NCBI GenBank assembly: GCA_030374765.1
Contig: JARGXX010000027.1
Location: forward strand, 1,148,109-1,212,108
DNA length: 64,000 nt
DNA from: Agarophyton chilense
Lineage: Eukaryota > Rhodophyta > Florideophyceae > Gracilariales > Gracilariaceae
Direction of reading: 5' to 3'
This document shows positions 22,316 through 60,743 of this stretch, piece by piece (position 1 is the first letter of the stretch; every line of letters starts with the position of its first letter). Made by a program: the position numbers and the translations under genes. Under the pieces are notes generated by a model that was not told the origin of the DNA, did no database searches, and saw only the letters and a program-made list of their open reading frames with translations.

Positions 22316-23161
22316 CTCACGTCTCTTGAGCGCTGGTGCTGCTTATGGGGACGACCCACCCCTTCGAGGTATCGGTGACAAATCCACGATGCGGCGCGAA
22401 GTGCATCGACGTGGCACCGAATGGGTTCGAATGCGTGCGTGGAGGTGGCGCGATAATGTCATCGCATTAAGGGTGAACAGGAATGCAAAACCGGAAACAG
22501 GTCGCGCAATTCCTGACGGGGCCGCTCAAAACCAGTAAGGTCTCACAACCGGAAGCGCCCACCAAAGACCTAGACCAACACCTCAATGGTTGTATCGACG
22601 CAGGCTCAGGCGCCACAGGCACCACAAGTCAATCCTTAAAAGGTAGACGAAACTTGAAAGGTCGAGAAGCCAGGAAACCTTCACGGAAAGCCCGACAGCA
22701 CGATTACGGTCGCGACGCCGCCAATTAAGGGCGGCACTACCTGAAGGGTTCTTGAGCCGAGGGAACGACGAGCCGGGACGGCGCTGAGCAGGGACCTAGG
22801 AGGGAACTGAAGTTTGAGTAACCGGGAAAAGTTGAGATGCCAACTTGGTTAGACAGGGGGCTATGCGGAAGCAGAACCGCAAGCAAGCAGGGCCACTACC
22901 AAAAAGATGTCCACGAGCGCGCTAGTTACACTGCATCGCCCTCATGACAGTCCCTACCTGAATGGTTGTCGCTCAATTAGTGCGCCGCCGTAGTCGCTCG
23001 CCCTCCCAAACCGACACTGGCGCCGAGTTCTGAACCTCAATGGATCGCGCGTCGCGCACCGTGAGCAACCGCCAACAGAGACCACTACAATGCCCGCGCC
23101 GCTGGCGCTCACTATACCTTTATAGTTTGATTGAAGGAGACACGGGGCGTGCCTCACGGGT
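22316..23161. other. Gypsy internal non-coding stretch
   Basis: Lies between the antisense frame and the polypurine tract. Open frames are short and I recognise nothing. It may hold the promoter of the antisense frame. Confidence 0.4.
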
Positions 23162-39589: not shown

Positions 39590-39964
39590 TACTAGGATCC
39601 GGTTGAGTTCTATGATTTTGAATGCGTTTGGGCTGCTTACATGGTGTCATTACTCGACGCCAACCATGGAACGCTGCCCAGAATACTTGTATGTGCGGTT
39701 TTGACAGCACCTGATGAATGCAATAGAATGCGATTAAAAATTTAATAATTTGGAGAACCAGATGTATGCCAAAACGCTCCAGTGAAATGAGCCCCGTTTC
39801 ATTTTTGACCGTGTTACAATACCAAAACCATAGAACACAGCAAAATGAAGCATGTGCTTTATTTCAAAGAACTGACGATTCATATAACTCGCGTTTCATG
39901 TCTATGCTCGGCAGAAGTGCAGTAATGCCTTCAAACATGTACGTGTGAAACAAATTCTAGAATT
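39590..39964 (+). repeat. Motif array B, 3' of helicase copy 4
   Basis: Homologous over most of its length with 48385-48790, which lies in the same position 3' of copy 2. It contains the shared core TATGTGCGGTTTTGA at 39690 and degenerate GGAACGC-type motifs. Non-coding. Confidence 0.7.
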
Positions 39965-42601
39965 TATACTTACCTTTAGTAACATTTATGTCTTTTTCGT
40001 GACACATAGTAGATTCAAAGGGTATGCTTGCCATTTGTGATTCGTTTAGAAGACTATTGTCTCTGTTTCGTAAAAGATTCTGTAACAAAAATGGCCTTTT
40101 CATCTGCGATGATCTTGACAGATACTAAGCAAAATCACTGACAAGAACTAATCTAAAAGTAAGACCGAAACTCAGCCCATCCTTCTGTACTTTAAAACTT
40201 TTTGAGTAAGACGGATCGCACTTAAAACTGCCTCCAGATGTTATTTTAAGATCTCTGTCACACAATCTGTGCCTGTGTTCTTTTGAGAAGCATCTAAGTC
40301 ATCGGTTCCTTTTTCACCCACAACTTTGATTACCGTAATTTACGACTGCATCGTGTGATACATAAGAAGCAATTCATTCATGTTAAAATTATCTAATGAA
40401 AGACTCGGAAGACCGTACAATTTGACTCATTGAGTCTTCTTCATCAAACGATGTGAACTGTATTGCCCTAAAGATAGCTCCATGTGCTTTAGAGAATGCC
40501 TATACCAGACTTTCTACGTCCAGGGCATGGGTTTCGGTCTCCAATACGGTACAGCAGTGCTGCAGCTCTTCAAACTATGTCTTGTATCACCATCCTCAAC
40601 TTCTGTTGCACCAATGTTCCGAGTGTCGCAAATGTCACAGTTCTTCCATTCGCTATCCAGCAGGCACATGCCACTTTGTTCCCGGTCCATCACACCACAT
40701 ATCCAGTTGTTACGGCACAAAAAAGTGTTTTCGAGCCTTTTTTCTTTCATCTTCCGCTCTAGGTGAATAAAGTCTTCTTCGTTTTGGTTCTGCAATGTCT
40801 TTCGCTCTAGTTCAGTCCCGAAAAAGCTTGCAAGACTACTGAGGTAGAAAGTGATTTAAAAAGAGTGCCTCACATCCCTCCCTGCTCTTCCAGACTCCTG
40901 TACATGGTCCGAAAGTGACGTAGATAAACCTACATGCAAGACCAGTCCCACATTAGGGGTGTCGATTCATGCTCCAAACCACACGTGCAAACCATGAGGA
41001 CCACTGTGCTCTGAGATGAATCCGTCTTATCATTCTCAGCTTCACTTTTTGTTGTCTACAAGCTTTGTATATCTGAATCCGTCTTATCATTCTCAGCTTC
41101 ACTTTTTGTTGTCTACAAGCTTTGTATATCTGAATCCGTCGAATTTTGTCTATATTCGCCTGATAGCAAAGAACAGAGACCTTTTTCGATAGATGTTTTC
41201 TGGGGCTTCCGTTATCTAACCCTTGTTATTACTCGCGTTATGCTGGTAGAATAGCACTGAACTGCTTGGCGTCCTTCTTTCGAGTGACATAAAGCGCAAC
41301 TCGAAAAACAGGCGAGTTCTGATGATCATTGGCGTTAAGCTTAACCTGCTGAAATATCTTTTCTAACTTTTCTTCAAGAACGGAAAGCGACTTGTCGAGC
41401 ACATTTTGCTTCGCAGTTTGAAGCCTTTCGCGATCCGAACGATCTTGCGAACATGTTGAATCGCTTTCGACGTTGAAACCGGCAAAAATAAGGTTCCTGC
41501 GGACTGTTGGCATGCTGAGAACAGAGTCTTTACACAGTCTATGCTTTGTGACCAGTGAAGAGCGATCTTGTGGTGGAATAGTCGTAGTTAGTCATTTGCG
41601 TGGTAGATTTCTCGGTACTTCAAGTAGTCCATATCTCCAATCACCCCGGCTTGGTCGGAAGACCAAGATACAGTGAGATTGGCTTCGGCGATTACCACGC
41701 GGGCCAGTCTTCTCTCCGCCACGAGTTTTTGTACCAACGGCTTGATGTGTTGGTCCCAAAACGGCTAGGGAAGTAGCATTTAGAAGTCGGCAGGCTGTTC
41801 GATGTTGCCAGGTATATTCGTACTGGCATGAAGCCCATATTTTTCGGCACGGAGTCTTTTTTCCGCTACCAGTGCCACCAGCGGAACAATCATGATTGTA
41901 GTGCAGGTTGAGCGTTCCATAAAAGCTGGAAGTAGAATGCACAATGTGTTTCCCAATCCTGTGGGCATGACCACTAGAATGTTTTCACGGCGTTCCGCTA
42001 CTGCAACATTGACATTAATTTGCATCGTGGACATGAACACCGAGTGATTGCAGCTGTTCAATGTTCGAAGGTGCTCTATAAAAGTAGGGAGATGTTTTTC
42101 ATTAGTCCGACTTCCAACGTCGACGAGTTTGACACCGAAGGGAGACATGGGCTGATATGGGCCAACATCAAAGATAGCATTTCCTCTGTATTCCAAGGAA
42201 ATATCCCTTTCCAGAACAGCAGCTCTTGATTAGCTGCGGCGCCCAAAACTCTCAGAACTTGGTTTCGATATACCGACAGGAATCGTATCAAGATTTGGAT
42301 GATGCACAGATCTGCCTTCCATCTGAACTTTCTTCTCTGATGTAGGCCAGTTTAAATGCTTTTGCCTTTTTCTGGGACGATCAGACTCATCTATGTCCTT
42401 TTGTATGGCAGAATCATTCCTTCCTTTCCAGTCAAAGCCCAGGTAATTGTGCCATTGCATAAACCATCTACGATACTTGTCCAAACTAGGTTTCCGCAAA
42501 TGCATTAATTCCTCTTTAGTTCTTTCGTAAGCCCTTTCAACAGTCTCCACACTGTTGGCTGCCTGATTCTGCCCGACCGCACGGGATTTGTCACGAATCT
42601 A
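39965..42601 (-). pseudogene. Helicase copy 4: 5'-truncated recombinase-RecQ pseudogene
   Basis: It aligns along its length with copy 2 (48813-51778). Homology starts abruptly at 42601, inside the recombinase-like domain just before the AANSVETVERAYERT segment, so the whole 5' half is missing. Recognisable parts are the linker before the helicase (42230-42550), a Walker A region reading PTGLGNT near 41955 in which the catalytic Lys is lost, the DEAH region, the MPTVRRNL segment (41513), and the Cys-rich tail (to about 39980). Frame changes and stops are frequent, and a 57-bp tandem duplication lies at 41019-41132. A dead copy. Confidence 0.85.
41019..41132. repeat. 57-bp tandem duplication inside copy 4
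   Basis: Two identical 57-base units, the first starting AATCCGTCTTATC at 41019 and the second at 41076. The length is a multiple of three, but the surrounding gene is already broken. Copy 2 has a single unit at the matching place. Confidence 0.85.
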
Positions 42602-43020
42602 TAAGTATCTTCGTGACGGAATCAAATTTTTTGAGTACGTACGGGCATGTAAGGGAATCAATGGCTGCTGTCCACTACCATTGATTCCAGCGCAGAACTG
42701 GCGTATGTGCGTTTTTGAAACCTTGGTTGGATCACCTTTGATTCCAAATAAAACTATAGTTTTTTTGGCACTGTTAGCCCCGCCGATGGCGCGCTGGCTG
42801 GCCGGGCAAGAATCAAAGCTTTCTGATGTGGACATCCAAAACGATTGAATCCGATAGGTGTGTATGTTTTCACTCTTTGAATTGAGATCCTTTCGTGCGC
42901 GCAGGAATCAAAGGTTTGGTGGTACCCATTGATTCTTGCCCTCCACGAATTATCCTTACTTTCACGCGGCTTACATCTTTGAATCAATTAATAAGGCCCA
43001 GAATCAACGGTTGTGTAATG
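42602..43020 (+). repeat. Motif array C: nine GAATCAA motifs in both orientations
   Basis: Starts exactly where copy 4 ends. GAATCAA (consensus RGAATCAAWGG) occurs at 42619, 42655, 42810, 42905, 42981 and 43001 on the plus strand and at 42681, 42738 and 42929 on the minus strand. Two pairs form hairpins (42654-42688 and 42904-42936). The shared core TATGTGCGTTTTTGA is at 42704, preceded by CAGCGCAGAA. No coding capacity. Confidence 0.85.
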
Positions 43021-43379
43021 CAAGTGAAGTAGTCTGCCTTGCACTACTCCCGCACTCTTTTCAGCAACGATATGATACGCCATGCGTGGGCTACGTAGAA
43101 AGTTTTGGACCGCAATAAGGACTTCACCAGATTGTTTCACAAGCGTTTGCTGCACTAGAGTACAACTATTGTTATTTCAGAACCGAGATGAAAATAAATT
43201 GGAGAGCTTGCGAAACCTGTTCGGCCTGCAATGAACGCATCTTGAGAACCACAGCCTACGGTACTATGAAGTACAGCACCGGGGACCTGTACTCCTTTCA
43301 GCTACAATTGACAGCGAACTCCAGCGCGAGATACACCTATTCGCCTCCGAAAAAATCATCTTTAGAGTCACACGCAAGA
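43021..43379. other. Unassigned stretch
   Basis: Non-coding as far as I can see, between two motif clusters. A short frame at 43188-43382 has no recognisable content. Confidence 0.4.
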
Positions 43380-43620
43380 TAAATGGAAATAGCATATGGA
43401 AGATATACTCCTCCGCAGATTTCCTTAATGGAGTACTCATTGCTCCATTTTCAAATGGAGAATTGTGTATTCCACTTGAAATGCTCTTTTTTTAATCCAT
43501 TTCAAGGTGGAGTATTATATCCTCTGTTTCGAAACGGTGTAAATGTCTTCATTTCCAGTATTGAAATATACTATTTTCCGCTTCGAAACGGAGTACTCTG
43601 TCCTTCATTTTAAGCAGGCA
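43380..43620. repeat. Second cluster of short inverted motifs
   Basis: Words of the type TTTCRAANNGGAGTA recur in both orientations (about 43470, 43498, 43530, 43580). CTCCATTTTCAAATGGAG at about 43442 is a near-perfect hairpin, and GGAGTACTC appears twice. The organisation resembles array C with a different motif, but the TATGTGCG core was not found. Confidence 0.55.
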
Positions 43621-43869
43621 CATTTTATATCTATAGAAGTCAGGGTTGACGTTTTTCGCTTTTCTAGCATCAAGTATTTAGGTCCACTGTCTTCTTGGCT
43701 AAATCAAGCGTATTTATTGCGTGTGCTGCTCATGCATACTCGACAATGCTCCTTCCGGATAACGAATTGAAATGTACCCCACTTACAACGTTGCATTTAT
43801 GAAACGACGATCAGAACCAATCCTTATGTATCCTGAGGAATCCATATTGGTTAAAAAATGTTGCTGACG

Positions 43870-46714
43870 ATTGTTGGACCACGACAAGCCGAAAATATGG
43901 AGGTTTGGGGTGCCCGAGGATTTTCTACTCATCCATTGAGTAAAGAGCAGGTCCATATTTGGCGAGGAACCCTCTGTGCTGCTATAATTCATCTCCAGAA
44001 GTGAATTGCATCATTCTGCAGTACTGTCGTCAGTAAAAGAATCTGCAATTCGTTGTCACTTCATCTTTTCTTTTCGCCAAGGGCACCATCCTAAATCGCG
44101 AAGAATATTCAACTTACAGGAGTTGCCAAAACCCATTTCCTTAGAGTGTATTTTGTTTCCCTAACTGTAGCTCACGTCACAACAAAAGCATGTTCCAGCA
44201 GAGTTGCTAGTCTTTTTGGGGCATCTACGGCATCCGTGATCTGATGAATGGCATCGGAAGCACCTGCTGGCGTCCAAGGACACATTGCATGATCAACGAG
44301 ACGTTTGAAACTGTCTGTCGAAATAAATCACGGCAGACACAGCACTTTGAATTCACGAACCACAGATGTGCGCTGCATAATGATAGTGGACAATGATGTG
44401 GCATTGCAACTTGGTTGCGTTCAAAATCATAGAATGGCATGCTCTGCGTATCAACTGTAGTAGGAATTCGGATACCTCTGTTCTGGCTCCCGGTGTTCGT
44501 GTGATATGTCTTCCCATGAGAAAAGATTGGCGAAGGCAATTGAGTATTGAAGACAGAAGTATCTTTCTCGGAGGCATCGGCCAACATGCCTTCACAAATG
44601 TCGCAGTTTTTTGCAGTCGTATTAAACATACAGATGCCGGGGTAAATGCCATCCCTTGCAGAGTAGAGCCAGTTTTTTCTGCACACTGTACGATTTTTCA
44701 TCCACCTTTGCATTTCCAACCACTCGATGAGCTCTTTATGCGATCACTCGGAATGTGTTTCCTTGTCGACACTCTCTACGTGGTACTGAAAGTAATCAGC
44801 ATATGCTTCGGAGTAAAGAACGAGAAAAAGGCCACCATCACCATCCCGACCAGCGCGGCCCGCCTCCTTTGCATAGTCTTTGGGAGATGATGAGCCTCCA
44901 ACTTGGAGAACAAGGCTCACATTTGGAGCATCAATTCCTGCTCCAAAGTCACACAGACAGACCAGTACAACTACTTTTGCTGCATTAAACGAATCGTTCT
45001 TTCGCCGAACGTAACGAGGAGTGCACCACAGACCGTACATTCTCTCCTTAATTTCGGTACCCATTCCTCCATGGTATTGAAGCACAACCAGCTGCAGATC
45101 TAGGTTAGGACGTTCGTCATACGGTGAGGAGGATAACAGAATGTAGGAGGTACTTATCACGTCTGCATAATTCTCAATATCTTTCCTTCGCAATACGTAG
45201 ATGATTACTCGGAAGAATGGAAGGTGAGTCCCATCATGGCTGGAAACAAGAAAGTCTTGATCAGATGCCTTTTCCGGCCCCAACTTAAGGGGGAACTGCC
45301 GCACTTAAGAACACTCTCGGGACGCAGCACGGCACATAAAGCAAGGCATATCTTATATCCCATAGCGGCTGACGAAAACTAGACCACGTGGTCGTAAGAT
45401 GCGCTTCATCTACCACAACACGAGCGAGAGAGCCTGACCTGACTAAAGACGAAATGAGTTTGAGGAAACTTTCGCTTCTCAATTGTTGAGGTGTGAGAAT
45501 GTACAGGTCTTCTTTCTCTCCACGAGGAGCATGAAAGGTCGTACATGTTATCAGATCAAGGTCCATCGTCCTCTGTTCAAACTCTTTTGCCAAAGATAGC
45601 AGCGGGACGATTAGAATGGATGAAAAAACTCCGCGAGTCATGAAGATTGGGAGCAAGACACAGAGTGAATTAGCCGATCCGGTTGGCATGATAACAAATA
45701 CATTTTCCCACCTCTCTGTGACAGTGGGTGTGACATTGTATTGTGTTTGGGATTTGAAGGTTGCCAATGGGTCTGTCAATATTGATTTCAGGTTTTTCAA
45801 GAAGGACGTTACCATATTCTCATACCTGTCTGAATCATCTTCAACGAGAGAGGTTAGTGAGAATTGCCAGCCAGGTATTATAGAAGTCAACATGTTCTTG
45901 GGGCCTTTCTTCTGACCGTAGTCAAAGGCATTCTGGCTTTCGAATATCATCTTACCGTTCTGACTTCTTTGGAAAGGGATTCCATTTCAAGACGAAACAT
46001 GCCTCTCCGGCTGAGTGTTTGGAGAGCAATTGATTTTCGAAGCGTTCTTGTCAGCAGGATTACACACTGTTTGTTTCGTTCTCGCAGGCCCATCTCCATC
46101 GTTGAGGTGTAAGAGTTGAATATGCTCCTGTCCTTCTTGATTCACCAATTCTTTCTCCCTTACAACGTTGATCGAATTGAAAGGACTCTGAAGACCAAGA
46201 AGTTCGTGCCACTTGATGCAAAACTGGCGGTAGGCTTGAACGGTAAAGTGATCTAAGTCATAAAGTTCTTCTCGTGTTCTACCGTAGACTCTCTCTGCAA
46301 TTTTGACACTATGACCAGCTTGTTCGTGCCCAAGGTTCGAAGCTTTTCTTCGAATCTCTTCAACTAAACCTTTCACCTTCCCGTTGGCGACTGTAGGTAC
46401 CATTCCAACAGATTTTCCACGGTAATCGTTGAAAAGAAGGCGCAGTGTGCCGAACAAAAGCTCTTTGGAGATAATAGAGCTTCTCTGAGGTTCCTTCACT
46501 GGTACGCCGTTGGTAACAACTAAACGATTCTATAGAAAGGCTGTAGCCTGTTGTCCGTAGAACAGTCCCACCAGGGCATTTTCTACCGGTTTGATGAGCA
46601 TGATGTACGTAAGCGAAAGCTCACTGGTCTTCGTATCTGGAAGTCTCGGAACTGGACGAGTAAAACCCTTAATTGATCTCGTTTTTTGCTACTTTGTAAG
46701 TATCATAACTCTTC
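43870..46714 (-). pseudogene. Helicase copy 3: 5'-truncated recombinase-RecQ pseudogene
   Basis: Starts at the junction with the tandem unit at 46715, inside the recombinase-like domain. Recognisable parts are FNDYRGKSVGM and HEQAGHSVKIAERVY (46310-46450), a Walker A region reading PTGSANS near 45675 in which the catalytic Lys is lost, DEAH near 45410, KEAGRAGRDG near 44850, a CCHC zinc knuckle (CFRCHSSDHGCRRC, near 44220-44265), and the terminal QWMSRKSSGTPN segment. Frame changes and stops occur throughout, including TAG at 46689-46691 and 44161-44163. A dead copy and more diverged from copy 2 than copy 4 is. The role of the ancestral protein is described under copy 1. Confidence 0.85.
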
Positions 46715-48379
46715 CCTGAATATATTGGTGTTTTGGCATGCTGAAAAATCAATGAATTTTTTGATGTGTGTGTCTGAGTTGAAAACAGGGCCGGCCAGAC
46801 AAAAAATTGTAAAAATTATGCTGTGGCGCAGGTCAAGCAGCCAGACATGTATTTTGATTAAATCTACCGAATAGCAGGCCTCAGTACACTGCAAATGCAA
46901 GTCTGATCGAGACTAGAAAAACGCGATAGAAGGTGCAAAAACTGGAGGTTGTCCGAGACAAAACGGGTGTCTGAGACACCACGGGTGTGTAGGAACTTGT
47001 GACAGTTGCCATACCAAACTCATCTCTGGGCACTGTACTACACGTTGCACGGGCCTGTAACGCGGCTAAACACGTAGGAAGACGTGTGAGGGAGGATCTT
47101 AGAGAAATCCAAAGTGTACAGTTGAACATGGTGGCCGCTAGATGATCTGATCTAATTTTCGAAAAGCTTCGGATTTGGGTGTGTTTGGGAGGGGTTTTAC
47201 AATCTGAGAAAAGGTCTTTGCCGTGTGTGCGGTAGACGGCAGATGACTAGCTCGTGATTCACCGAACTGTGGACACGCACAATTAGGGCTGAGGAGAGTG
47301 TGTTGGATGTGACTGATGTGTAAGAGTGCTGAAGGGGGACCGAGTTGGACACAAAAACCGTGTGATGATTGGCGTTTTAGCATGCCGAAAAATGTTTCAA
47401 TGACTTGCAGTCCCTTGAGAAAAGAGGTGGGTTTAGGGGAAGATGCACCATTACGGGGTTTTATATTTGCAGTAAGGAAAACAATCTTCAATATAATGGT
47501 GTTTTAGTAAGCTGAAAAGGCATTGAATTCTAAACCCCTGAATATATTGGTGTTTTGGCATGCTGAAAAATCAATGAATTTTTTGATGTGTGTGTCTGAG
47601 TTGAAAACAGGGCCGGCCAGACAAAAAATTGTAAAAATTATGCTGTGGCGCAGGTCAAGCAGCCAGACATGTATTTTGATTAAATCTACCGAATAGCAGG
47701 CCTCAGTACACCGCAAATGCAAGTCTGATCGAGACTAGAAAAACGCGATAGAAGGTGTCAAAAATGGAGGTTGTCCGAGACAAAACGGGTGTCTGAGACA
47801 AAACGGGTGTCTGAGACACCACGGGTGTGTATGAACTTGTGACAGTTGCCATACCAAACTCATCTCTGGGCACTGGACTACACGTTGCACGGCCCTGTAA
47901 CGCCGCTAAACACGTAGAAAGAAGTGTGAGGGAGGATCTTAGACAAATCCAAAGTGTACAGTTGAACATGGTGGCCGCTAGATGATCTGATCTAATTTTC
48001 GAAAAGCTTCGGATTTGGGTGTGTTTGGGAGGGGTTTTACAATCTGAGAAAAGGTCTTTGCCGTGTGTGCGGTAGACGGCAGATGACGAGCTCGTGATTC
48101 ACCGAAATGTGGACACGCACAAGAAGGGCTGAGGAGAGTGTGTTGGATGTGAATGATGTGTAAGAGTGCTGAAGAGGGACCGAGTTGGACACAAAAACCT
48201 TGTGATGATTGGCGTTTTAGCATGCCGAAAAATGTTTCAATGACTTGCAGTCCGTTAAGAAGAGAGGTGGGCTTAGGGGAAGATGCACCATTACGGGGTT
48301 TTATATTTGCAGTAAGGAAAACAATCTTCAATATAATGGGGTTTTAGTAAGCTGAAAAGGCATTGAATTCTAAACCCCT
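46715..48379. repeat. Tandem dimer of a ~0.83 kb unit (S1)
   Basis: Two units (46716-47537 and 47538-48379) are nearly identical. The second carries an extra 18-bp repeat (ACGGGTGTCTGAGACAAA type, near 47790). Each unit ends CTAAACCCCT, and the left, middle and right junctions all read CCCT. Inside each unit a TGGYGTTTTRGCATGCYGAAAA word occurs about three times. The small minus-strand frames are conserved between units only because the DNA is. I do not regard them as genes. Confidence 0.9.
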
Positions 48380-48384
48380 TGACT

Positions 48385-48790
48385 CTACTACTAGGATCAG
48401 GTTGGGTTCTATGATTTTACATGCGTTTGGGCTGCTTACATGTTGTCATTGCTCTGACGCCAACCATGGAACGCAGCGCAGAATAAGTGTATGTGCGTTT
48501 TTGACAGCGCCTGATGGATGCAATGGAACGCGATTAAATTTTTAATTTTTTGGAGAACCAGTTGTATGCCAAGGCGCTTCGGTAAATTGAGCCCCGTTCC
48601 ATTGTTGATCATTTTACGATACCGAAACCATAGAACGCGGCGAAATGGAGCATGGTCTTTACTTCAAGCATCACACGGTTCATATAACTCGCATTTCATA
48701 TCTCTGATCGGTAATGGTGCAGTACTGCCCTAAAACATGTACGTGTGAAACAAATGTGGAAGTTTATACTTACGTACAGCTGCATTTACT
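48385..48790 (+). repeat. Motif array A, 3' of helicase copy 2
   Basis: CMATRGAACGC motifs lie at 48464, 48521 and 48628 (+) and 48595 (-). The shared core TATGTGCGTTTTTGA is at 48490, preceded by CAGCGCAGAA. Homologous with array B at 39590-39964. Confidence 0.8.
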
Positions 48791-48812
48791 TTCATATCTG
48801 ACTAAGCTCGTT

Positions 48813-51778
48813 TTACTCCTTCCTCATATTTGAAAACCAAACGCCAATCCTTAGAACATTGGGAGTTTCGTCGTCCGACGACGATAACCATTTCGCAAAC
48901 ACCCGGTCTTGTTCGTGAAACATAGTAGAGTCAGAACGTAAGCTTGCCACTTGTGATTCGTTGAAGAGACTGCAGTCTCTGTCGCAGAAAAGATCCTGTA
49001 CCAAACGCGCCCTTTTCATCGGCGATGATCTCCACAGAAACCAGCCAAGCTCCCTGAGAAGAACCAGTCTACAAGTAGGACCGAAACCCAGCCCATCCCT
49101 GTGTACTTTGAATCCTTTCGCGTAAGACAGACCACACTTGAAACAACCTCCAGATGGTATTGCAAGATCTTTGTCACACAAGCGGTACCTGTGATCCTTT
49201 GAGTAGCATCTGAAGCATCGTTTCCTTTTCCACCCGCAACTTTGATTACCGTGTTTCACAACTGCTTTGTGTGAAACATAGCAAGCAATGCAATCATGTT
49301 CAAATTCTCTAATGAGGGACTCGCAAGTCCCTACAACATGACTCATTGAGTCTTCTTCATGAGAAGATGTAAATTGTAGTGCCCGCCTAGAAGGTTCATA
49401 TGCTTGAGAGAAGGCGTTAACAGGACCTTCTGCTTCCAGGGCGTGGGGTTTCGGTCTCCATTTCGGCCCAGCAGGGCTGCAATTCTCCCAACTCTGTCGC
49501 TTATCACCGTCATCAAATTTTGGTGCACCATTCCTTCGAGTGTCGCAAATGTCACAATTCTCCGACTCGCTATCCAGCAAGCACATGCCACTTTGTTCCC
49601 CGTCCATGACACCATACATCCAGTTCTTTCGGGACAACAAAGTGTTTTCGAGCCATTTCTGTTCTTCCCTCCACTGCTCTAGTTTAATATAGTCTTCTTC
49701 ATTTTGGATCTGCAATGCCTTTCGCTCTAGTTCAGCCTCAAAGGAACGTGCAAGACTACTGGAGTAGACGGTGATACAAAAAGCGAGCCTTCCATCCCTC
49801 CCTGCTCTTCCAGACTCCTGTGCATGGTCCGAAAGTGACGTAGATCCACATACATGCAAGACTAGTCTCACATTAGGGGCGTCTATTCCAGCTCCAAACG
49901 CACACGTGCACACCATGAGGACCACTGTGCACTGAGATGAATCCGTCGTATCTTTTTCACCTTGACTATTTTGCTGTTTCCAAGCTTTGTATATCTGGAT
50001 CCGTTGAATCTTGTCCATGCCGGCATGATAGCAAAGAACAGAGACCTTTTTCGATAGTGGTTTCCTGGGGCTTCCGTTGTGTAAACCTTGTTCCTCCTCG
50101 TATAAGGCTGATAGAATATCACTGAGCTGCTCGGCGTCCTTCCTTCGAGTGACGTAAAGGAGAACTCGGAAAGCAGGCGAGTCCTGATGAGCACTGGCGT
50201 TAAGCCTAACTTGTTGACCTATCTCTTCTAACTTTTCTTCAAGAACGGAGAGAGTCTTCTCGAGGATCTTCTGCTTCGCACTTTGAAACCTTCCGCCCTC
50301 TGAACGATCTTGCGAACATGGTGAATCGCTTTCGACGTTGATCACGGCAAAACAAAGGTTCTTGCGGACTGTGGGCATGCTGAGAACAGAAGCTTTACGC
50401 ATTCCATGCTTTGCGACAAGGGCAGAGCGATCTCGTGGTGGAATAGTCCCAGTTAGTAAGATGCGTGGGATGTTTTTCGGTACTTCAAGTAGTCCGTATC
50501 TCAAATCACGCAGGCTTTGTCGAAAAGAAGACCAAGATGCAGTGAGATGGGCTTCGTCGATTACAACGCGGGCCAGTCTTCTCTCCGCCACAAGTTTTTG
50601 AACCAACTGCTTGAATCGTTGGTCCCGAACCTGCTCGGGAACGAGCATATAAACGTCGCCTGGCTCTCCGATGTTTCCAGGTATAGTTGTACTGGCATGA
50701 AGCCCACATTTTTCGGCACGGAGCCTAAGTTCCTCTCCCAGTGCCACCAGCGGAACAATCATGATTGTAGTAAAGGATGAGCGTTCCATAAACGCTGGAA
50801 GTAGAATGCACAAAGTCTTTCCCGATCCGGTGGACATGACCACTAGAATGTTTTCACGGCGTTCTGCTACTGCAACAGTAACATTAAATTGCATGGTGGA
50901 CTTAAACACGGAGTGATTACAGCTGTTCATTGTGCGAAGGTGCTCTAGAAAAGTAGGGAGATGATGTTCATATGTCCGAGTCCCTACATCGACGAGTTTG
51001 ACACCGAAGGGAGACATAGGCTGAGATGGGCCAATTTCAAAGATTGTATTTCCTCTGTATTCCAAAGAAATATCGCTTTCCAGAACAGCGGCTCCAGAAT
51101 AGCTTCGGCGCCCAAGACTCTGAGAACTTGGTTTCGATACATCGAAAGGAATCGTATCAAGATTTGGGTGATGCCCTGACTTGTCTTGCATCTGGACTTT
51201 GTTCTCTGATGTAGGCAAGTTTAAAGGCTTCAGCCTTTTTCTTGGACGACCAGACTCATCTGTGTCGTTTTGAAGCTCAGAAGCGTTCTTTTCTTTCCCG
51301 TGAAAGCCCAGGTATTTGTGCCATTGCATAGACCATCTACGATACTTGTCCAAACTAGGTTTTTGCAAATGGATTAATTCCTCTTTAGTTCTGGCGTAAG
51401 CCCTTTCAGCAGTTTCCACACTGTGAGCTGCCTGATTGTGCCCGACTGCACGGAACTCGTCACGAATCTGATCCATTAGATCATGAGCTTTTCCTTCACT
51501 AACGGCAGGGACCATGCCAACTGAATAATTTCTGTAGTCGTTGAAGGTTAGTTGGATGCCTTTTAGTTCAAGGTGTTTCGATACCACACCGCGTATGTAA
51601 TCATCAGTGAAAGGTTCACCCTTGTTGCAGAAGAGGATGTTCCAGTGTTCTTTTCCCAAAGAGGGCCCATATAAAGCTGAGACCATTGCAGTTTCCAATG
51701 GCCTTATTAGAACAAGATACATGAGAAGATACTCGCTTGTTTTGGAATCTGGAAAACGTGGTATGGGCTTCGAGAATC
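48813..51778 (-). pseudogene. Helicase copy 2: 5'-truncated but otherwise open recombinase-RecQ frame
   Basis: The frame is open from the junction at 51778 to the TAA at 48813-48815. The first ATG (51720-51722) would give 969 residues. It aligns with the C-terminal ~1,000 residues of copy 1: the end of the recombinase-like domain (FNDYRNYSVGM; AAHSVETAERAY), the helicase with Walker A STGSGKT (about residue 297), DEAH (387), TGT in motif III and QESGRAGRDG in motif VI, then a CCHC zinc knuckle (CFRCYSKDHRYRLC) and a second Cys/His group. Nothing inside is broken, so truncation is recent or the shortened protein is still made. It lacks the OrsD zinc fingers and the first recombinase Arg. Without a known promoter it is best treated as a truncated copy. 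Confidence 0.85.
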
Positions 51779-53497
51779 CTATATATATTACAGGTTGTAA
51801 GTGTGGGCTGGCGCTTGGTAAAACGCAGTTGTCAGTAGCGCTTGGTAATTACATACACCAAGCGCCACGCGCTGCATTCGACGTATGTGCGATTTTGACC
51901 CCCTGGATGGAAAACGTTGTGCTGGAGAGCGCGTATGACACATTGGCACGCTCAAAAAATCGTGGCTAATTGCGCTCAGGCGCTTCGTTCGGGTAACGTA
52001 GCGCGCGAATTGCCAGATGTTGGCGCGCAGCACCCATTTTCGCAATATTTGCATTTGAAAAAATCATAAATTTTAGGCGCGCTGGGCTTTCTGCCAAATC
52101 CTGCGTTTGCACATGTTTTATTGTAACATTTTTGCTGCACAACGTGGAGGCGTGCGTCGAGTGTGGCACTCAAAGGCGCTTGGTTTCAGCCACATCTCCG
52201 CTGCACAGTCGAGCTGTGTTGTAAGCTGGATAATGTGCGAAATTTTTATCAAAAGAAAGGGTTGTGTTATGCGTTTGCGCTTGGTTCTGTGGCTATTTCG
52301 TGGAGGCAGATGGCACATTGTCAGGCGTTTTGTATGTGCGTTTTTGGGGTCGTGTACGCGGCTGAAAAAAGGTGCGTTTGCGCTTGGTTCTAGGATGGTT
52401 TTCATATCCGGCAACACTGGGGGTCGATATTCGATGGTATTGCCAAGTTCAATGTAGGTTGAGTGTGGTGAGTAGTAGGTCACGCGAGTGCTGGCGCCAC
52501 ACTCTCAGCTAAAGAAGACGCGTGCAGTGCGTTTAGTGAGGTAGGGATGACGTATGCTTAACGATGACAGGTAGATTCTTATGACGTTAAGGTTTGTCCA
52601 ACAGTGGCATCGCCACTAAGTAGCTATCGGTCAGGGCCTATATATATTACAGGTTGTAAGTGTGGGCTGGCGCTTGGTAAAACGCAGTTGTCAGTAGCGC
52701 TTGGTAATTACATACACCAAGCGCCACGCGCTGCATTCGACGTATGTGCGATTTTGACCCCCTGGATGGAAAACGTTGTGCTGGAGAGCGCGTATGACAC
52801 ATTGGCACGCTCAAAAAATCGTGGCTAATTGCGCTCAGGCGCTTCGTTCGGGTAACGTAGCGCGCGAATTGCCAGATGTTGGCGCGCAGCACCCATTTTC
52901 GCAATATTTGCATTTGAAAAAATCATAAATTTTAGGCGCGCTGGGCTTTCTGCCAAATCCTGCGTTTGCACATGTTTTATTGTAACATTTTTGCTGCACA
53001 ACGTGGAGGCGTGCGTCGAGTGTGGCACTCAAAGGCGCTTGGTTTCAGCCACATCTCCGCTGCACAGTCGAGCTGTGTTGTAAGCTGGATAATGTGCGAA
53101 ATTTTTATCAAAAGAAAGGGTTGTGTTATGCGTTTGCGCTTGGTTCTGTGGCTATTTCGTGGAGGCAGATGGCACATTGTCAGGCGTTTTGTATGTGCGT
53201 TTTTGGGGTCGTGTACGCGGCTGAAAAAGGTGCGTTTGCGCTTGGTTCTAGGATGGTTTTCATATCCGGCAACACTGGGGGTCGATATTCGATGGTATTG
53301 CCAAGTTCAATGTAGGTTGAGTGTGGTGAGTAGTAGGTCACGCGAGTGCTGGCGCCACACTCTCAGCTAAAGAAGACGCGTGCAGTGCGTTTAGTGAGGT
53401 AGGGATGACGTATGCTTAACGATGACAGGTAGATTCTTATGACGTTAAGGTTTGTCCAACAGTGGCATCGCCACTAAGTAGCTATCGGTCAGGGCCT
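51778..53497. repeat. Tandem dimer of an 859-bp unit (D), with iteron-like motifs
   Basis: Units 51778-52636 and 52637-53494 are almost identical (one base lost in an A-run). Each boundary reads CCTA. In the first unit GCGCTTGGT occurs at 51811, 51838, 52176, 52277 and 52380 (+) and 51857 (-). The core TATGTGCG occurs at 51894 and 52333, and 859 bases later in the second unit. The left boundary cuts copy 2 inside its coding frame. Frames within the units mirror the DNA duplication and are not supported as genes. Confidence 0.9.
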
Positions 53498-53511
53498 ACG
53501 GGAGTTTACGT

Positions 53512-53812
53512 TTTCGTAGAGGAAACCATTGTGTACGGGCTTTTACAGGTTTCAGGGGTTTAGGGGTTTAGGGGTTTTAGGAGAAGCTTTACCTTTATGG
53601 GATTTTGAAGTTACGGAGAGGAAAACATTGTGTAGGGGTTTTAGGGGTTTTAGAGGTTCAGGGGTTCAGGGGTTCAGGGGGTTTAGGGGAAACTTTACCT
53701 TTATGGGATTTTTTATTTACGGAGAGGAAAACATTGTTTAGGGGCTGGAGGGCTTTAGGGGTTTTAGGGGAAGCTTTGCGTTTATTGGATTTTAGGGGTT
53801 TTAGGAGTCTAG
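53512..53812. repeat. Telomere-like minisatellite
   Basis: About three imperfect units containing TTACGGAGAGGAAAACATTG and CTTTACCTTTATGGGATTTT alternate with runs of TTTAGGGG, TTTTAGGGG and TTCAGGGG. The G-rich strand is the plus strand, running left to right. Degenerate interstitial telomere-type sequence. The true telomere repeat of the species is unknown to me. Confidence 0.75.
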
Positions 53813-54226
53813 AGTCGAGACGTCAAGTTCCATTATAGTACGAATGCGTGGTGAACAGATTGTTTGAGGGTGTACTCGATATCTGCGGTGGTTGGATAAA
53901 GTTCTGTGTTGAGCGACCTGCATTCGATAAGTGTACTGGGCTTTATGTGTAGGACTGATATAGAGTGTAGGTTGTTTCGTTACACTGTATTTTTGAGGCG
54001 GAGTTGGGGTATTTAGGGGCTGAGGTTGAGCTGGAGATAGAGTCGTTTGAATAACGCTTGTTGCTGGGTTGGGTGTAATGTAACGGTCGAATATGGGGTG
54101 TTTGGCGTTATACTTAAGTATAAAGAGTAGGAAATGTGGTTTTCTGTGGCAAGGAAGAGAGTTGAAAGCAAAATGGAGAAAGAAGAATGGGTGTTTATTG
54201 TACCGGGTTGGAATCTAAAATCGTGC
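53813..54226. other. G/T-rich non-coding stretch 3' of copy 1
   Basis: No gene. A minus-strand frame (54013-54288) is low-complexity and overlaps the end of copy 1. Composition resembles 37700-38600. Confidence 0.45.
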
Positions 54227-57200
54227 TTAAATGAGTGTTGTGGTTGACTTCCACCAAGCTGCAAGGCGTAGAATGTTGGGTACGGCAAAGTGGTTGTTGT
54301 GTGTTAACCAATCATGAAACATGGCGTCTATTTCAAGGTGGAGGGGTGAGGAATCTTGGGAGGATTGGGAAATGGAGTTGAACTTGGATTGCATGCGGCC
54401 GTCAAAGAGGTGGAGTGCAATTTCGGAGCGAGTTTTGGAGCATGTTCGCCACAAGACCCATGCCAGTTGATAGAGCGAAATGAAGATGCAGTGTCTTGTT
54501 CCAAAAGTGTGCGGTTGAGAATGAGTTTTGAGTCCCTTGCAGAATCCGAGATGGCAACGGTAGCAGGTTCCTTGAGGTGATTTATCGAACCTGCAGTTGC
54601 GCGATATATGGTGCGGCGAAAAGCATCTGAAGCATCGTTGACGGGAATGGGGGCATGCATGAGTGTCCGTCAAGTGCACTTGCGTTTTTTCGTGCAGCAA
54701 GCATGGCACACAGAGAGGGGCAAGTCGGCGGGAGAGCTCCTCGAAGTGTGACACGATTTGTTGCGGTGTTTTTCGTTCCAAGGTGTAAAAGAAGGTGGCA
54801 GAGTGCGACTGAGATTGAGAATGAGCGACAGTGGGCGATTGGGTCGCTGCGGATGGATGCGTGGTTGTCAGCAACGGCGATGGAGTGGAGGTGGGGGGTC
54901 GTGGTGGACGACTGGCGTGGGGTTTGGGGCTTTGTGTTGGGCCGCCGTTGGTGTTGGTGTTTTGGTTGTTTAAGGATGTTCTGTTTGATTGATTGGCACG
55001 GTTTTTTGGCGGCGTGGGCGTTTGTGGGGAAGCGCTGGGTGACGGTGAAATGGATTGGGCGTGCTGAGAGGCAGAAGGGGTAGCGGAAACGGAGCTTCGT
55101 TCCGGGGAACGGTGGGGAGGGGGAGACAGCTGCGATGCTATTGCAAATATCGCAATTAAGAACCGAAGGAGAGAAGAGACAGATGCCTGGTTCTTTTCCG
55201 TCCATGTGGAAATAGAGGGCGTTCCTTCGACAAACAGATTTGCATTCGACCCAATGCTGCGCTTCCAACCAACGCTCCGTGGAAAGTGCTTGGTTGTATA
55301 TGCGATTGGGCTCCTCAAACGCATTTGTGTTGGATGAGGACGAAGAAAGAGTTTCCGTAACGAGTTTGAAGTAGGGCTGGAAATAAATGGTGACGCAAGT
55401 GGATGGGTTTCCATCGCGGCCGGCCCTGCCGGCCTGTTGCGCGAGGTCGCAAAGACTCGCTACTCCACCAAAGTTGAAAACCAGGCGAACGTTGGGAACG
55501 TCGATGCCCGTACCAAAAGAAGAGATGCAAACCATGAAGAGAATGTGGTTGGTTGTGGGTGCGCTGGAAGAAGGCGGAGAGTTCCAAAGGGTGTGAGCCC
55601 GGCGTTTACGAACATCGGAGAGACCAGAATGGTACAGGAGAACCGTGACAGTAGTGGATTGTTTAAGGGCACCAAAAGAAGAACGCGAAGCGGCGAGAGC
55701 TTCATGGACAGCTTCGGCAGCCGGGCGTGTTAACGAGAATATAAGAACGCGAGCTAGGGTTGTGTCAGCCGACGAGTGAAGCAATCGAGCCACATGCTCT
55801 TGCATGATTGAGACGCCCAGCTGAAGCAGGTATCCAAACACATCCTGAAAGTGGCCATGAGCGGCGCGAAAGCGTGTGGCACGCGAAGTGCTGGGGGCTG
55901 AGCTTAGCTGATACACGACAAAAGAAATGTTGTTTCTTGCAGTCGAAGAAGCGTACACATGCGCGTTCGGGATATGCAGCTGCGACAGAAGAAGGGGGCG
56001 GTCGCGCGGCGGCACTGTCGCGCTTAAAAGCACGCGAGGGATCTTTGTGGGAATATGGCCGAAGCAGTTGTGGAGGTTGGCCAAGCACGGGCGAAAGTGT
56101 TGCCATAAAAGAAATAAGTGACATTCATCGATGGCAATGCGGGCGAGGCGGTCGGCGGCGATCAGTCGCGTGGTGAACTCTGTAAAAGAAGGAAGAGAAA
56201 GTCTTTCAGCGGAAAAGATGTAAATGTCGGCAAAGGAGTGCGATCCGGGAGGGGTGGGTGTACGAGAAGCACGAAGGCCGAAGAGCTGAGCGCGCAGTTC
56301 GTATTCACTGAGCAAGGCTGTGAGAGGGGTGATGAGAACGGTGGAGTATTTGCCCTTTTCCATGAAGACGGGGAGCAGAAGAGATAGTGTTTTTCCAGAT
56401 CCAGTCGGCTGGAGTAGTAGCATGTTGGACAGCCTGTTGTACACGGCCGCTGTGTTCACAAATTGTTGGTGGGACTTGAATAAAGCGGAGTCGTTGGAAA
56501 GTGCCTGTCTTAGTGCTCGGAGCATTTCTGATGTAATATGTTCGTAGGTCACAAGCGGTTGTTGTAAGAGAGAAGCTCCCCCGCGCGGTATGGCGGCTGC
56601 CATAAAAGCAGGCGGATGTGGATTGAAAGGATGAGAGGCGGCCAGGTTTAGGTTGATTTGAGAATGGGGGATCGCAGAGCGGTCAGTGGGAGGGGACGGG
56701 GTTGGCTGCGATGTATGGATGGAGCGCTTTGGTTCAGGTGTAGGTAGAACTGTGTCAGTAACCGGACGTTTTCTGTGGTGTTGTTGTTGTTGTTGTTGTT
56801 GGGTGAGGGGAGCATTAAGAAGAAGACCGAGATACTGGTGCCATTTGCTGGACCACTCGCGATATTTGGAAAGTTGAGAGTGCTGCAAACCGGATATGTC
56901 ATGTGGTGTACGAGCGTAAAGAAAAGCGGCGGTGTGCGCAGAGTGGCCCGCCTGGCCATGGGCAGTGGTCAATAGCTCTTCCAAGATGTGATCGGCTACA
57001 GAAGATGCGGTGACATTGGAAACTGTGTTGGTCATTCCCACGGTGAAGTTTCTATAGTCGTTGAAGGATATCGGGAAACCGCGTTTGCTCAAGTGAGAGC
57101 TGATTATCGAGCGGATGGTGTTTGCGGCATACGGAATTCCGCAGTTGGCGAACAGCATTTTCCAATGCATCTGGAAACAGTTTTCTCCGTGTAGGCAGCG

Positions 57201-59774
57201 GACGATATATGCTTCAAACGGACGTATCAGAGTCAAGTACATGAGCAGAAGACGGGATGTTTGGGCATCGGGAAAGCGAGCAATCGGAGTGGCGGCCCCT
57301 TTGCTGTTTCGCGTTTTCATGTACCGGCAAATGAGGACAGGCGATTTGTCGATGAGCATGAGACAACGTTGAAAGTGTTGGTCGTTGTGGATACGGTATG
57401 TCTCAATCTCTGTGCCGCGCGCAGGAGAGCCCGACGAAAGGTGTAGCGCAACCAACAGGCGTTCTTGGATTTTCTGTGCACATGAGAGCCACCTCGACAA
57501 CGCATGCGTGAACATATCGGTGCCCAAAATGTCGGTTGTGGGCAGTTGTGTGCGGGGAAAGGTACCGTTTTGCTTGCGTTGCGGAAGAAACGGAGTGTGG
57601 TCGGTGTTGGAGTTGTGGGGCATGGAAGACGTGAGACAAGTGAAAACGAAAGCCATGTTTTGTTCGATAAATGGGCGGTTGTTGAGGTTGGTAAGGAAAG
57701 AAAAGCCTGGGCTTTTGTTGAAGGAGTCGTCCTGAAGTGAGTGTAGCGCGTTTGTGAAACCGGTTGGCAGAGCGTGGCCAAGAAGCAGGTCGTTGTGAAG
57801 AGTATGTTGTATTTCTTTGTGTAGAGTTAAAACCAAAGAGCCGACTTCTGAGAGGGCGAGGTGAGTGTCACGCACTATGCCGCAGGACGGGTGAACATCA
57901 CAATTGTGGAAAGAAACGAACATTTCCTCGCGAGAGGATATGGACATTGCAAGCGTGAGTGTCTTTCTGACAAACGAAAGGGCGTTGTTGGAATCAGCGT
58001 CGATTGCCGCGTCGATGGTACGCATGCGTTCTTGAACGTGAACTGGGCGTTCGGAAGCAGGGGTGGCAGGTTGCAACAGGGGAGAAGATTTGGAGAGCAC
58101 GTGCAGTTCGTGTATGGCGCAGGCACAGATGCCATATTGAAGAGCGGCGAGGAGGTGCGTCACATCTGAGGCGGCTGCAAAACGAAAGGAGGTATTGTTG
58201 GGGTCGTGAGAAATGACCGTGTCGTAAGGCTCAGGCGTGCGGTCAGACGGCAAGGGGGCAGCGATAGGCGGGTTGGGGTCGGTGCTTATCACGCTTGCGC
58301 AAGCAATGAAGTTGCGAACGGAGAGGAGATCCAAAGAGTGGTATGGCGCTAAAGATTGAAGCAAGAAGGGCTTGAGCGCGCTATGGACCGCTGGGCCATG
58401 TTGGGTTGGAGGAAAGGGAGCGGGGAGCTCACCAGAGGAAGACATGCGAATGGCATCCAACACGGAAGTAGTGTAGCAGTACATGAGGTCTGAGTCGGGT
58501 ACGAGATGAGGGAGGTTTGCCCTTGTCCTGTGAGTAAACACAAGCAAACGGGAAATGTGTGAAGCGTAACGCTTGAGGGTTTCAGTGGAGACAGTTTTAA
58601 AAGCTGTGTCGGTGCGCTTGTTGAGGCGGTCCAAGAAAGCCAGGGAGGTCTTACTAACCAAAATGTTCACCTGAGAGAGGTAGTCGAAGATGTGGTGGGT
58701 GATGGTGCTTTCAGCGGATGTGGGCGTTGTGCCAGTTCTGGATAGTTGAGCCGCCACATCCAGATGAACATGAAGCGAGTGAAGAACGATGTCAAACTTG
58801 GAAAAGGTGATGAAAGAATTCTTCTCCGAGTGGTGACGAAGCAAAGGGTCTGATTGCGAACAAGGAGCGCCGGTGTTGAACTTTTGTAAAAAGTGGTTAA
58901 TGTGTTGAAGCGGGGGCTCGATGCCTTTGGCAGTCGTTGCCACTGGACGATGGGGTGGTTGGAGACAAACAGGCTGCGCCCGGGGGGTATCAGGCCGTGC
59001 CGCAGGCGCCTGCGGAACCTGGAAAGTTTTGGACAAGCAGCCTATGGGTTGAGCATTGGTAACGGGGAATAAACGGCGACGAACGCCGCCGTACACTGTC
59101 TGCAAGGCAATACGGCCCGACGAGACGGTACGGTCAAGGTGTGGCTGGGCAACCGCAGGCGACATATTGTGGCATTCGATCAGATGCGCTTGCAAACGAA
59201 CGGGGTCGAGGTAGCAGAATTTGCAGAGCGGGCACTGATAGCCATTGTGAATGGCAATGTGTGCCAGGGGCGTGAGGAACGTAGAGGGCCCGGACACAAA
59301 TTGAGCGTTGTGTTGGGGGCGATACTTTTGCCACACGGGGGCAACGTTAGAGTTGTTGCGCAAGGTGTGCACCTCGTGCAGGATTGCCATTGACATGGGA
59401 CTTGCAATTTCCAAAGGGATGGAGTGCTGTTTGCGCAAGTGATGTTGGATTGCGCGGGCAGACGGCAGCCCACACTGGCAGTTGACGCACAACGGAAAGA
59501 ACCCAATAGAATGAATACCCATATTCACAATGGTACCGAGTGCCATGATAAAAGAGGAAGAATCGTCGGCTGCATTTGCGTCGGTAACGGGTAAGTCGGA
59601 ATGGGGTTGAGCATGGGCGTCACGCGCCACGGGCGGAGGCGGTGGGGGGAGCAGGGGATTAGGGGGAGTGGGCGGTGAGATGTTCACCGCAGCCCTCGGT
59701 GGGCTGTGCACCGAAGAGGGGATGAACACGGGCAAGCCATGTTCGCCGGCGGAGGATAAGCTGTTTTGCGACAT
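54227..59774 (-). CDS. Helicase copy 1: full-length OrsD zinc finger / tyrosine-recombinase-like / RecQ helicase fusion, one +1 frame change
   Basis: I start at the ATG at 59772-59774; the open frame extends further but with a non-ATG start. Domains: Pro-rich leader; two C2H2-type fingers of the OrsD kind (about residues 96-117 and 181-202); a long helical region; a tyrosine-recombinase-like domain with Arg in SPARGTE (~785), NDYR (~906) and GHSAHTAAFLY (~935-950); a Gln-rich run; then a RecQ helicase with PTGSGKT (~1123), DECH (~1215), SAT and QQAGRAGRDG (~1450). The frame must change by +1 in a Pro/Ser-rich linker near the C-run at about 55110 to reach the CCHC zinc knuckle (CFRCFSPHHISRNC) and the conserved end at 54227, about 1,850 residues in all. 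Fungal telomere-linked helicases share this OrsD-middle-RecQ order. The recombinase reading is my inference. Likely acts on subtelomeric DNA or moves itself. Confidence 0.82.
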
Positions 59775-60743
59775 AACTGAACGTGTAAGAGAGAGAAGAA
59801 GACGCTTGGGAGGATTGTTTTTGAAGACGCAAAGAAAGACACACACAAACAAACACAATCGAGTTTGGGAGCATCAGCGAAATGGACGGGTTCACTGCCG
59901 ATATAGCAGTATAAGTAGTAAATAGGTGGGGCGAGGGTAATTGGAGAAAGGCGGTTTGGTGTTTTGGGGGAGGGCGCGTGTGGCTGGCTTGAGCAAATGG
60001 CATACTGTACAAGGGAACCTTCACGATACTATTTGGTATTGCAGGTCATTCATTCCCGGTGTATGACTGTGGGGTTGTGGGGAGGAGTGTGTCACAATAA
60101 AGCTCATTGGCCTCCGCCCCATTGAGGAGAGTGATTTTGTGTAAGGGGCGTGGTTTCCGTGCAGGGGGGGAGCGGGAAGGGGAAAAAGGGCAGCACAGAG
60201 AAGAGATGGGGCTGCGCGGTGGTGGAGTCGGGTTGGGGGAGGGCAGAAGTTTTCAGGGTGGGTTCGGACTTGTGTGTAAATGGACGGAGGTTTAGAACGA
60301 GCTGGCGCGCGATCGGGTGCGCCAGCGGATGTTGTGCGGCAATGTGGCAACTTGTTGTGAAGCATGACGTTTTCAGAACGGCTAACTAGTGGCGGTGGTG
60401 GCGTATCGTACACACGTATTAGTTTGAGCACAAGCGGTGCTGCACCGCGGTTGAGCTCATATATGCATATGCGACATGTTTGACCGTTGATTTTGGAAAA
60501 ATGGTGCTACATGTGACGTGGGTAGGAGGGGTGCTATGTGTTACAGTATGCGCACTGTGTAACGTTATGATGGTGTTTGGCAAAAGAAGTGAGATGTTGC
60601 GGGGCGTGGCAGTGGGGGCCGAAGAAGAAGGTTATAGGTTTTCTGTTTTTAAAACGAATGAAGGAAGAGAGTTTGCGCGTGGTTGTTCTTAGGAGAGAAG
60701 GTTTAGTTTTTAGTTGTGTTCTACTGAGAAAGAAAAGAAACAA
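59775..60743. other. Intergenic region between copy 1 and the methyltransferase gene
   Basis: Serves as the upstream region of copy 1. A dyad CTGGCGC...GCGCCAG lies at 60301-60324. GGGG runs occur at 60150-60240. No gene can be supported, and short frames on both strands have biased composition. Confidence 0.45.

Follow-up and report, generated by a model that had tools for sequence, protein, structure and literature searches.

The right end of a 1.21-Mb contig from the red alga Agarophyton chilense carries helicase genes that lie head to tail beside telomere-like repeats, which raises the question of how such a stack could have been built. The window examined here is the whole stretch of 64,000 nucleotides (C27:1148109-1212108), whose last base is also the last base of the contig, and the genome searched for relatives comprises 79.76 Mb in 135 contigs. 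An initial annotation of this DNA proposed that units had been added serially to an eroding chromosome end, as is known for HeT-A and TART of Drosophila, with a recombinase-like RecQ protein in place of a reverse transcriptase.

A stack of truncated elements

Between 39585 and 64000, seven co-oriented pieces from four element families (A to D) are stacked up to the right end of the contig (Table 1). From left (inner) to right (outer) their order is B', D, C, C, B, A, A, and the helicase genes read inward. At a minimum, the three helicase relics and one 859-bp piece lack their outer part. The tandem units described initially in the flanks are real: the two 859-bp units (51778-53498) are 99.9% identical, and the two of ~826 and 844 bp (46714-48379) are 95% identical. 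The second family C unit (47536-48383) has ~40-bp direct repeats (80%) near both ends and may be a short non-autonomous element.

Table 1. Positions of the stacked pieces in the window and of the parts of the family A element at the left end of contig C95
Feature	Position	Strand	Remarks
Window: element B' (copy 4), helicase relic, 5' (distal) side cut	39585..42600	-	84-85% and 81% DNA matches to 48384-51469
Window: element D, distally cut; copy 3 gene at ~43861-46706	42601..46713	-	tblastn
Window: family C unit 1, ~826 bp	46714..47535	+	edge CCCTGAATATATT
Window: family C unit 2, ~844 bp	47536..48383	+	
Window: element B (copy 2)	48384..51777	-	cut within recombinase-like region at copy-1 residue ~854
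Window: family A 859-bp unit, an A element reduced to its proximal 859 bp	51778..52636	+	edge CCTATATATATTACAGG
Window: youngest element A, cut by contig end	52637..64000	-	99.67% identity with C95 across 10849 aligned positions
Window: interstitial telomere-like array, TTTTAGGGG variants, between 859-bp unit and helicase	53537..53800	+	motif is that of terminal arrays
Window: HEL, OrsD zinc-finger/recombinase-like/RecQ helicase gene	54227..59858	-	split near 55108; single 1880-aa frame in C95
Window: MTSET, N6/N4 DNA methyltransferase-SET gene	60744..63999	-	two overlapping frames, cut by contig end; one 1141-aa frame in C95
C95: telomere repeats	1 to ~2132		
C95: 773-bp satellite	directly inward of telomere repeats		more satellite between third gene and MTSET
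C95: third gene, 1335 aa	3855-7859		read outward
C95: MTSET, 1141 aa	11632-15054		
C95: HEL, 1880 aa	15928-21567		
C95: interstitial telomere array	~22000-22320		
C95: 859-bp unit	ends at edge 23176		

Four related genes had been reported on one strand, and four helicase-type genes are indeed present on the minus strand, but the relics among them come from several families and are not copies of copy 1. Copy 1 is complete at 54582-59858 and has an additional C-terminal part in a different frame at 54227-55459. The reported loss of 5' ends from the three genes on the left is confirmed, as copies 2 (48813-51777), 3 (43861-46706) and 4 (39990-42600) begin at copy-1 residues ~854, ~841 and ~958, respectively, and residues 1-840 of copy 1 have no other match within the window at E 1e-3. 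Copies 2 and 4 form one family with 81-85% DNA identity, and copies 1, 2 and 3 belong to separate families with ~29-40% amino-acid identity. The frame of element B runs for 1011 aa from stop to stop, its first 24 aa being encoded by the adjoining 859-bp unit.

Copy 1 and the neighboring MTSET had been suggested as possibly the newest, complete unit. This is the youngest element of the stack, but the contig stops inside MTSET without a telomere, leaving the outermost unit incomplete. Relative to C95, copy 1 of the window also has small indels, and HEL and MTSET, each a single frame in C95, are both split.

The element on contig C95 and its proteins

The left end of C95 was traced from the telomere to the element edge, a unit of ~21.0 kb (Table 1), within which bases 22645-23149 (505) are covered only through their match to the 859-bp unit. 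The third gene is antisense to HEL and MTSET. At this one end examined, the outer side of the element holds only telomere, with no target remainder, no outer direct repeat and no remnant of an older unit outside the newer one.

HEL contains OrsD, DEAD and Helicase_C domains, and its best-matching solved structures are RecQ helicases. The part of MTSET in the window encodes an N6/N4 methylase and a SET domain. For the third gene, Pfam and NCBIfam gave no match; by eye only, its C-terminal HTD...H...R residues resemble those of a 2-oxoglutarate dioxygenase. No reverse transcriptase or Gag match was obtained in HEL, MTSET or the third-gene protein. The profile scan covered these three long proteins out of all C95 frames of at least 150 aa, and a genome search with RVT_1, in which 150 of 3134 candidates were scored, is uninformative about ends. 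The suggestion that a recombinase-like RecQ protein takes the place of a reverse transcriptase gained no evidence in this analysis.

A protein search with HEL gave 65 matches among 7989 scored candidates, the best being 28-29% identical over ~80%; no gracilariacean is among the matches listed, and searches of phages and viral contigs revealed no relative. Because dN/dS for HEL copies relative to C95 is 0.06-0.38 in seven comparisons (seven of the 26 other copies, two of them resting on 5-6 changes), we infer that the encoded proteins have mattered recently. Between copies 2 and 4, dN/dS is 0.53 over 829 codons.

Tyrosine recombinases have the catalytic pattern R...K...HxxR...H...Y. An alignment of seven proteins has R485, K519, R607, H643 and Y652 of HEL (numbered within 56679-58871) in every sequence and lacks the HxxR histidine. 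The spacing from H643 to Y652 is presumably that of tyrosine recombinases. Pfam, PHROGs and PDB profiles gave no match to this region, whose identity as a tyrosine recombinase is likely but unproven.

An internal element at C117:1461500-1479300 encodes a Plavaka transposase (E 1.4e-22) together with relatives of MTSET (46%) and of the third gene (42%), arranged in the same divergent order as in the end element. The end element resembles Plavaka (KDZ) giant transposons, with which it seems to have cargo in common, and differs from them in that the end-element proteins scanned have no Plavaka match. In the MTSET genome search, 33 of 70 rows are of the C117 type; these lie on both strands and most are far from contig ends, with some near them (e.g., C16:2773 and C10:928665). 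A protein search with the internal MTSET relative returned nothing at E 0.001. The long genes of the C117 element span ~14.6 kb, and its middle is palindromic.

A fixed inner edge joined to variable cut points

The inner edge of family A, CCTATATATATTACAGG, joins 16 different cut points. We regard this fixed edge as the decisive finding, which fits repeated addition to eroded ends, not random exchange, and which favors the serial addition put forward initially by analogy with HeT-A and TART. Twenty family-A edges were taken with ~260 bp of inner flank each, and 18 of the 20 flanks clearly derive from the same elements in the same orientation, with 12 distinct cut points. In window-equivalent positions, these cuts fall in HEL (55312, 55797, 57840 and 58526), in the gap between HEL and MTSET (60769), in MTSET (62204), in the interstitial array (53697), twice in the 773-bp satellite and three times in the 826-bp unit (47214, 47412 and 47536). 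Four more are located at window positions 51777 (copy 2) and 52636 (unit to unit), on C96 and on C95 (826-bp unit, ~47700). As for the remaining flanks, the one on C63 is weakly assigned, and the one at C76:4179, where the edge carries a small inversion, was left unassigned. At C76:4140-4439, a small inverted segment lies beside TATATA at one family-A edge.

On C96, a relative of copy 2 stays open for 832 bp further, through the recombinase-like region, before it meets an identical edge, so a single ancestral gene has been cut in two places (copy 2 and C96) and capped with the same terminus. Such joins bear on the possibility of a Y'-type subtelomere, in which an ancestral end block is spread by homologous recombination or break-induced replication and the relics reflect ordinary decay. 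This explanation would account for copies that are 97.8-99.985% identical to C95 over the compared stretch, for interstitial telomere repeats between units and for some identical joins on two contigs. However, homologous copying makes no new joins, whereas a single edge, sharing terminal bases with its targets, takes part in 16 distinct joins, and the joining of a fixed edge to non-homologous points contradicts spread by homologous recombination alone. We therefore consider a Y'-type origin improbable. Several joins recur on more than one contig, which implies that they are also propagated by homologous exchange, and such spread of existing ends likely occurs alongside end addition.

Of 13 scripted junctions, 12 have edge bases (CCT, CC, CCTA or CT) in common with the start of the intact sequence beyond the cut; sharing of at least 2 nt is expected by chance at 3.2% (binomial 1.5e-17). 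Among the evaluable junctions, to which C96 does not belong, 13 of 15 share 2-4 nt. The C95 junction reads GCAGG and then CCT, with 3 nt shared, and the junctions without shared bases are those on C13 and C89. The outward-strand edge YCTA of A, B and D corresponds to ...TAGR-3' on the helicase sense strand. The shared bases can be read as short pairing of the chromosome end with the end of a template, and target choice by an enzyme would give similar ones.

The first base of the edge differs at C2, C4, C103 and C13, and the terminus is therefore fixed to within one or two bases. A fixed edge, an outward telomere and short shared bases might also arise if broken chromosomes captured, by end joining, a linear extrachromosomal element with one fixed and one telomeric end. 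End joining usually trims both partners, whereas the terminus of the element is intact to within those one or two bases, and capture of this kind seems unlikely to us.

Partial units retain the same edge. All 12 partial family-A 859-bp units keep the inner edge (66 rows kept), as do 36 of 41 partial family-C 826-bp units (73 rows kept). None of the latter keeps the outer end alone, and five keep neither, one of which (C111) starts 31 bases before the edge. These searches scored 40 of 131 candidates for the 859-bp unit and 38 of 65 for the 826-bp unit. Five of 71 family-A rows were dropped (the full row of the window itself, two copy-2 rows from C96 and C68, and two 66-bp rows from C63 and C76), along with three of 76 family-C rows (the own full row and helicase rows on C80 and C135). 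On C17, whole and cut units of A alternate with those of C, and on C28 the two families are adjacent. Formation of a satellite by unequal exchange was considered and rejected because nearly every partial unit retains the one edge; tandem units that are whole are uninformative on this point, as the query itself begins at the edge.

A box, CGTATGTGCGNTTTTGA, is situated 101-104 bp from the edges of elements A, B and D. In the window it has seven matches at up to three mismatches, compared to 0.56 expected, all on one strand, with five at edges (A twice, B, B' and D) and the other two being internal repeats of unit A. The proximal edge of B' lies at 39585 (TCAACTACTAGG), where its DNA match to 48384-51469 also begins, and the box follows at +103. 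For element D the proximal edge is at ~42599 (TCTATAAG) with the box at 42702, ~101-103 bp away, and D matches B in DNA at the same offset from the edge. Because the box is common to A, B and D despite helicases that are ~29-40% identical, it supports the view that these edges are homologous termini. Oligo(A/T) at the inner junction is absent from edges CCTATATATATT, CCCTGAATATATT and TCTACTACTAGG. RNA folding of the four termini yielded z values of -2.2 (A), -2.6 (D), 0.1 (B) and 0.7 (C), and no shared fold is claimed.

Placement and orientation in the genome

The genome search with HEL scored 27 of 291 candidates, and each of these 27 copies either lies no farther than 66 kb from a contig end or belongs to a contig shorter than 60 kb (C32 and C76). 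On contigs longer than 90 kb, 25 of 25 copies have their 5' end outward, at 23 contig ends; the copy on C92 and one of those on C103 are 65 kb and 50 kb from the end, respectively. The telomere array beside HEL is present in C95 and in the window, and its flank is common to other copies.

The family-A edge has 145 genome matches at up to two mismatches (76 forward, 69 reverse), and its reversed control has none. From the 100 matches listed, 85 were assignable and 15 were not, with lower-bound lengths taken from other matches for C1, C12, C22, C31, C68, C93, C97 and C99. These 85 lie on contigs longer than 90 kb and involve 32 contig ends; without exception they are directed toward the closer end of their contig, and the farthest edge with a measurable distance is 89 kb from its end. 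A scatter over random sites in random orientation is thus not seen. Similarly, the T-form of the box (B and B' type) has 16 exact genome matches in 13 contigs, with none for the control; 15 of the 15 judged point to the nearer contig end, and the remaining match is on C111. The exceptions are one internal MTSET copy of the terminal type (C4:1098956) and two third-gene copies, one without its inner part (C68:61287) and one without both sides (C117:1585863).

Uniform orientation is difficult to reconcile with Crypton-like, site-specific insertion by the recombinase-like domain at YCT sites in older elements, after which all sequence farther out would have been lost. The R, K, R, H, Y pattern conserved in seven sequences and the short YCT match at the joins would be natural features of such a process. 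However, YCT occurs on both strands and predicts mixed orientation, whereas 85 of 85 edges agree; moreover, C95, the one end examined, has no outer remainder, and the domain drew no match from Pfam, PHROGs or PDB profiles. Insertion of this type is accordingly a poor candidate. An assembly artefact might be suspected because the window lies at a contig end without a telomere and its copy contains small indels, but some joins recur on separate contigs, the orientation is uniform and the edge is nearly exact, making this explanation extremely improbable.

The telomere motif has 2354 genome matches, with none for the reversed control. The G-rich repeats at 53537-53800 deserve the name telomere-like that they were first given, since their motif also ends contigs C95, C76 and C6, and arrays stand at the very ends of C1, C12 and C21 among the matches listed. 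The proposed location at chromosome ends holds insofar as the assignable edges all face the nearer contig end, but of the contig ends printed (C27 and 20 others), two of 21 (C76 and C95) finish in telomere repeats, so the term chromosome end is presumptive for most. Uncapped contig ends, which finish in an element or in other sequence, are probably assembly breaks.

On C6 (C6:1116227-1123376), the telomere array starts directly inside HEL at ~codon 131. On C21 (C21:609051-679044), the terminal telomere array is preceded by a row of six partial third-gene copies, which was perhaps amplified via the flanking 773-bp repeat.

A proposed model of end addition

The explanation that we hold to be probable is that these are chromosome-end elements copied from one fixed terminus onto eroded chromosome ends. 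In this red alga, large elements that carry genes appear to make up the chromosome ends, with newer ones outside older ones and the older ones cut short. The rival explanations discussed above are not mutually exclusive with end addition or with each other.

In the proposed mechanism, an eroded end finishing in CCT or CC would pair with the AGG terminus of a template, which might be the element RNA or a DNA copy ending at that terminus. The paired chromosome end would then be extended outward along the template. Telomerase would then cap the new unit, which would itself erode before a further unit joined on its outer side. For opening or processing the end, the RecQ protein is the leading candidate, and the polymerase step might rely on a reverse transcriptase supplied in trans or on break-induced DNA synthesis. 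An open frame of 1158 aa on C73 encodes a telomerase RNA-binding domain. The antisense third gene is awkward for a single RNA template.

A more specific version, which we offer tentatively, is that DNA-based extension free of reverse transcriptase operates alongside telomerase. The recombinase-like RecQ protein would make or present ...TAGG-3', pairing would involve ~3 bases, and the 21-kb unit would be templated, carrying DNA- and histone-methylating cargo common to internal giant transposons.

If end addition is correct, HeT-A-like growth of chromosome ends would occur in a red alga that has a telomerase gene, by an element in which no reverse transcriptase was found. Furthermore, telomere-linked RecQ helicases, which are often regarded as passive subtelomeric genes, would be tied to a mobile element whose terminus is defined. 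Owing to the fixed edge, the proposed priming step can be tested at the level of single bases.

Comparison with known end elements

Drosophila HeT-A, TART and TAHRE resemble the red-algal elements in being head to tail and co-oriented, in mixed families at chromosome ends, with a fixed inner end, a cut outer end and the 3' ends of the main genes inward, features described in part in PMC5537684. The algal copies likewise occupy contig ends in one orientation, with telomere caps at few ends and one internal MTSET. They differ from HeT-A in having no poly(A)-type edge, in that neither Gag nor a reverse transcriptase was recognised in the C95 element, in keeping telomerase-type repeats and in a unit of ~21 kb with an antisense gene. 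Rotifer Terminons and Athena Penelope-like elements are also large multi-gene telomeric units, often 5'-truncated, with telomere repeats at the units. Terminons always contain a reverse transcriptase according to PMC5537684 (HeT-A and Terminons are also covered in PMC5408684), whereas none, Penelope-like included, was recognised in the three C95 proteins scanned.

Fungal TLH genes (Ustilago UTASa/b) and yeast Y' are alike in that numerous ends bear RecQ or helicase genes and that telomere repeats separate the units. Fusarium has truncated helicase regions and interstitial telomere repeats (PMC12857005), and Ustilago UTASb carries an OrsD domain (PMC10532341). The red-algal element differs from TLH and Y' in its discrete terminus, shared terminal bases, variable targets and cargo of methyltransferase-SET and third gene. 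FoTeRs are co-located with telomere-linked helicases and are often truncated (PMC12857005); FoTeR and MoTeR differ from the red-algal element as retrotransposons inserted in telomere repeats. Agaricus was among the close systems compared (PMC7473861), and passages of PMC9812998 on Cyanidiales subtelomeres make no mention of a helicase. Among the papers listed by literature searches on telomeres or Penelope elements in Gracilaria or red algae, none reports an element of this kind.

Other features of the window

Searches of the window with Rfam (gathering scores) and for tRNAs gave no matches. The copy-4 relic holds a perfect 57-bp duplication (2.2 copies) at 41017-41140. A Copia-type retrotransposon polyprotein of 1124 aa, identified by Pfam hits only, is encoded at 27031-30405. 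Just inside the stack, at 35650-36927, is a polysaccharide mono-oxygenase (LPMO_10) gene whose product shares 81% identity with a protein of Gracilaria domingensis and 63-64% with proteins of Gracilariopsis chorda and Agarophyton chilense.
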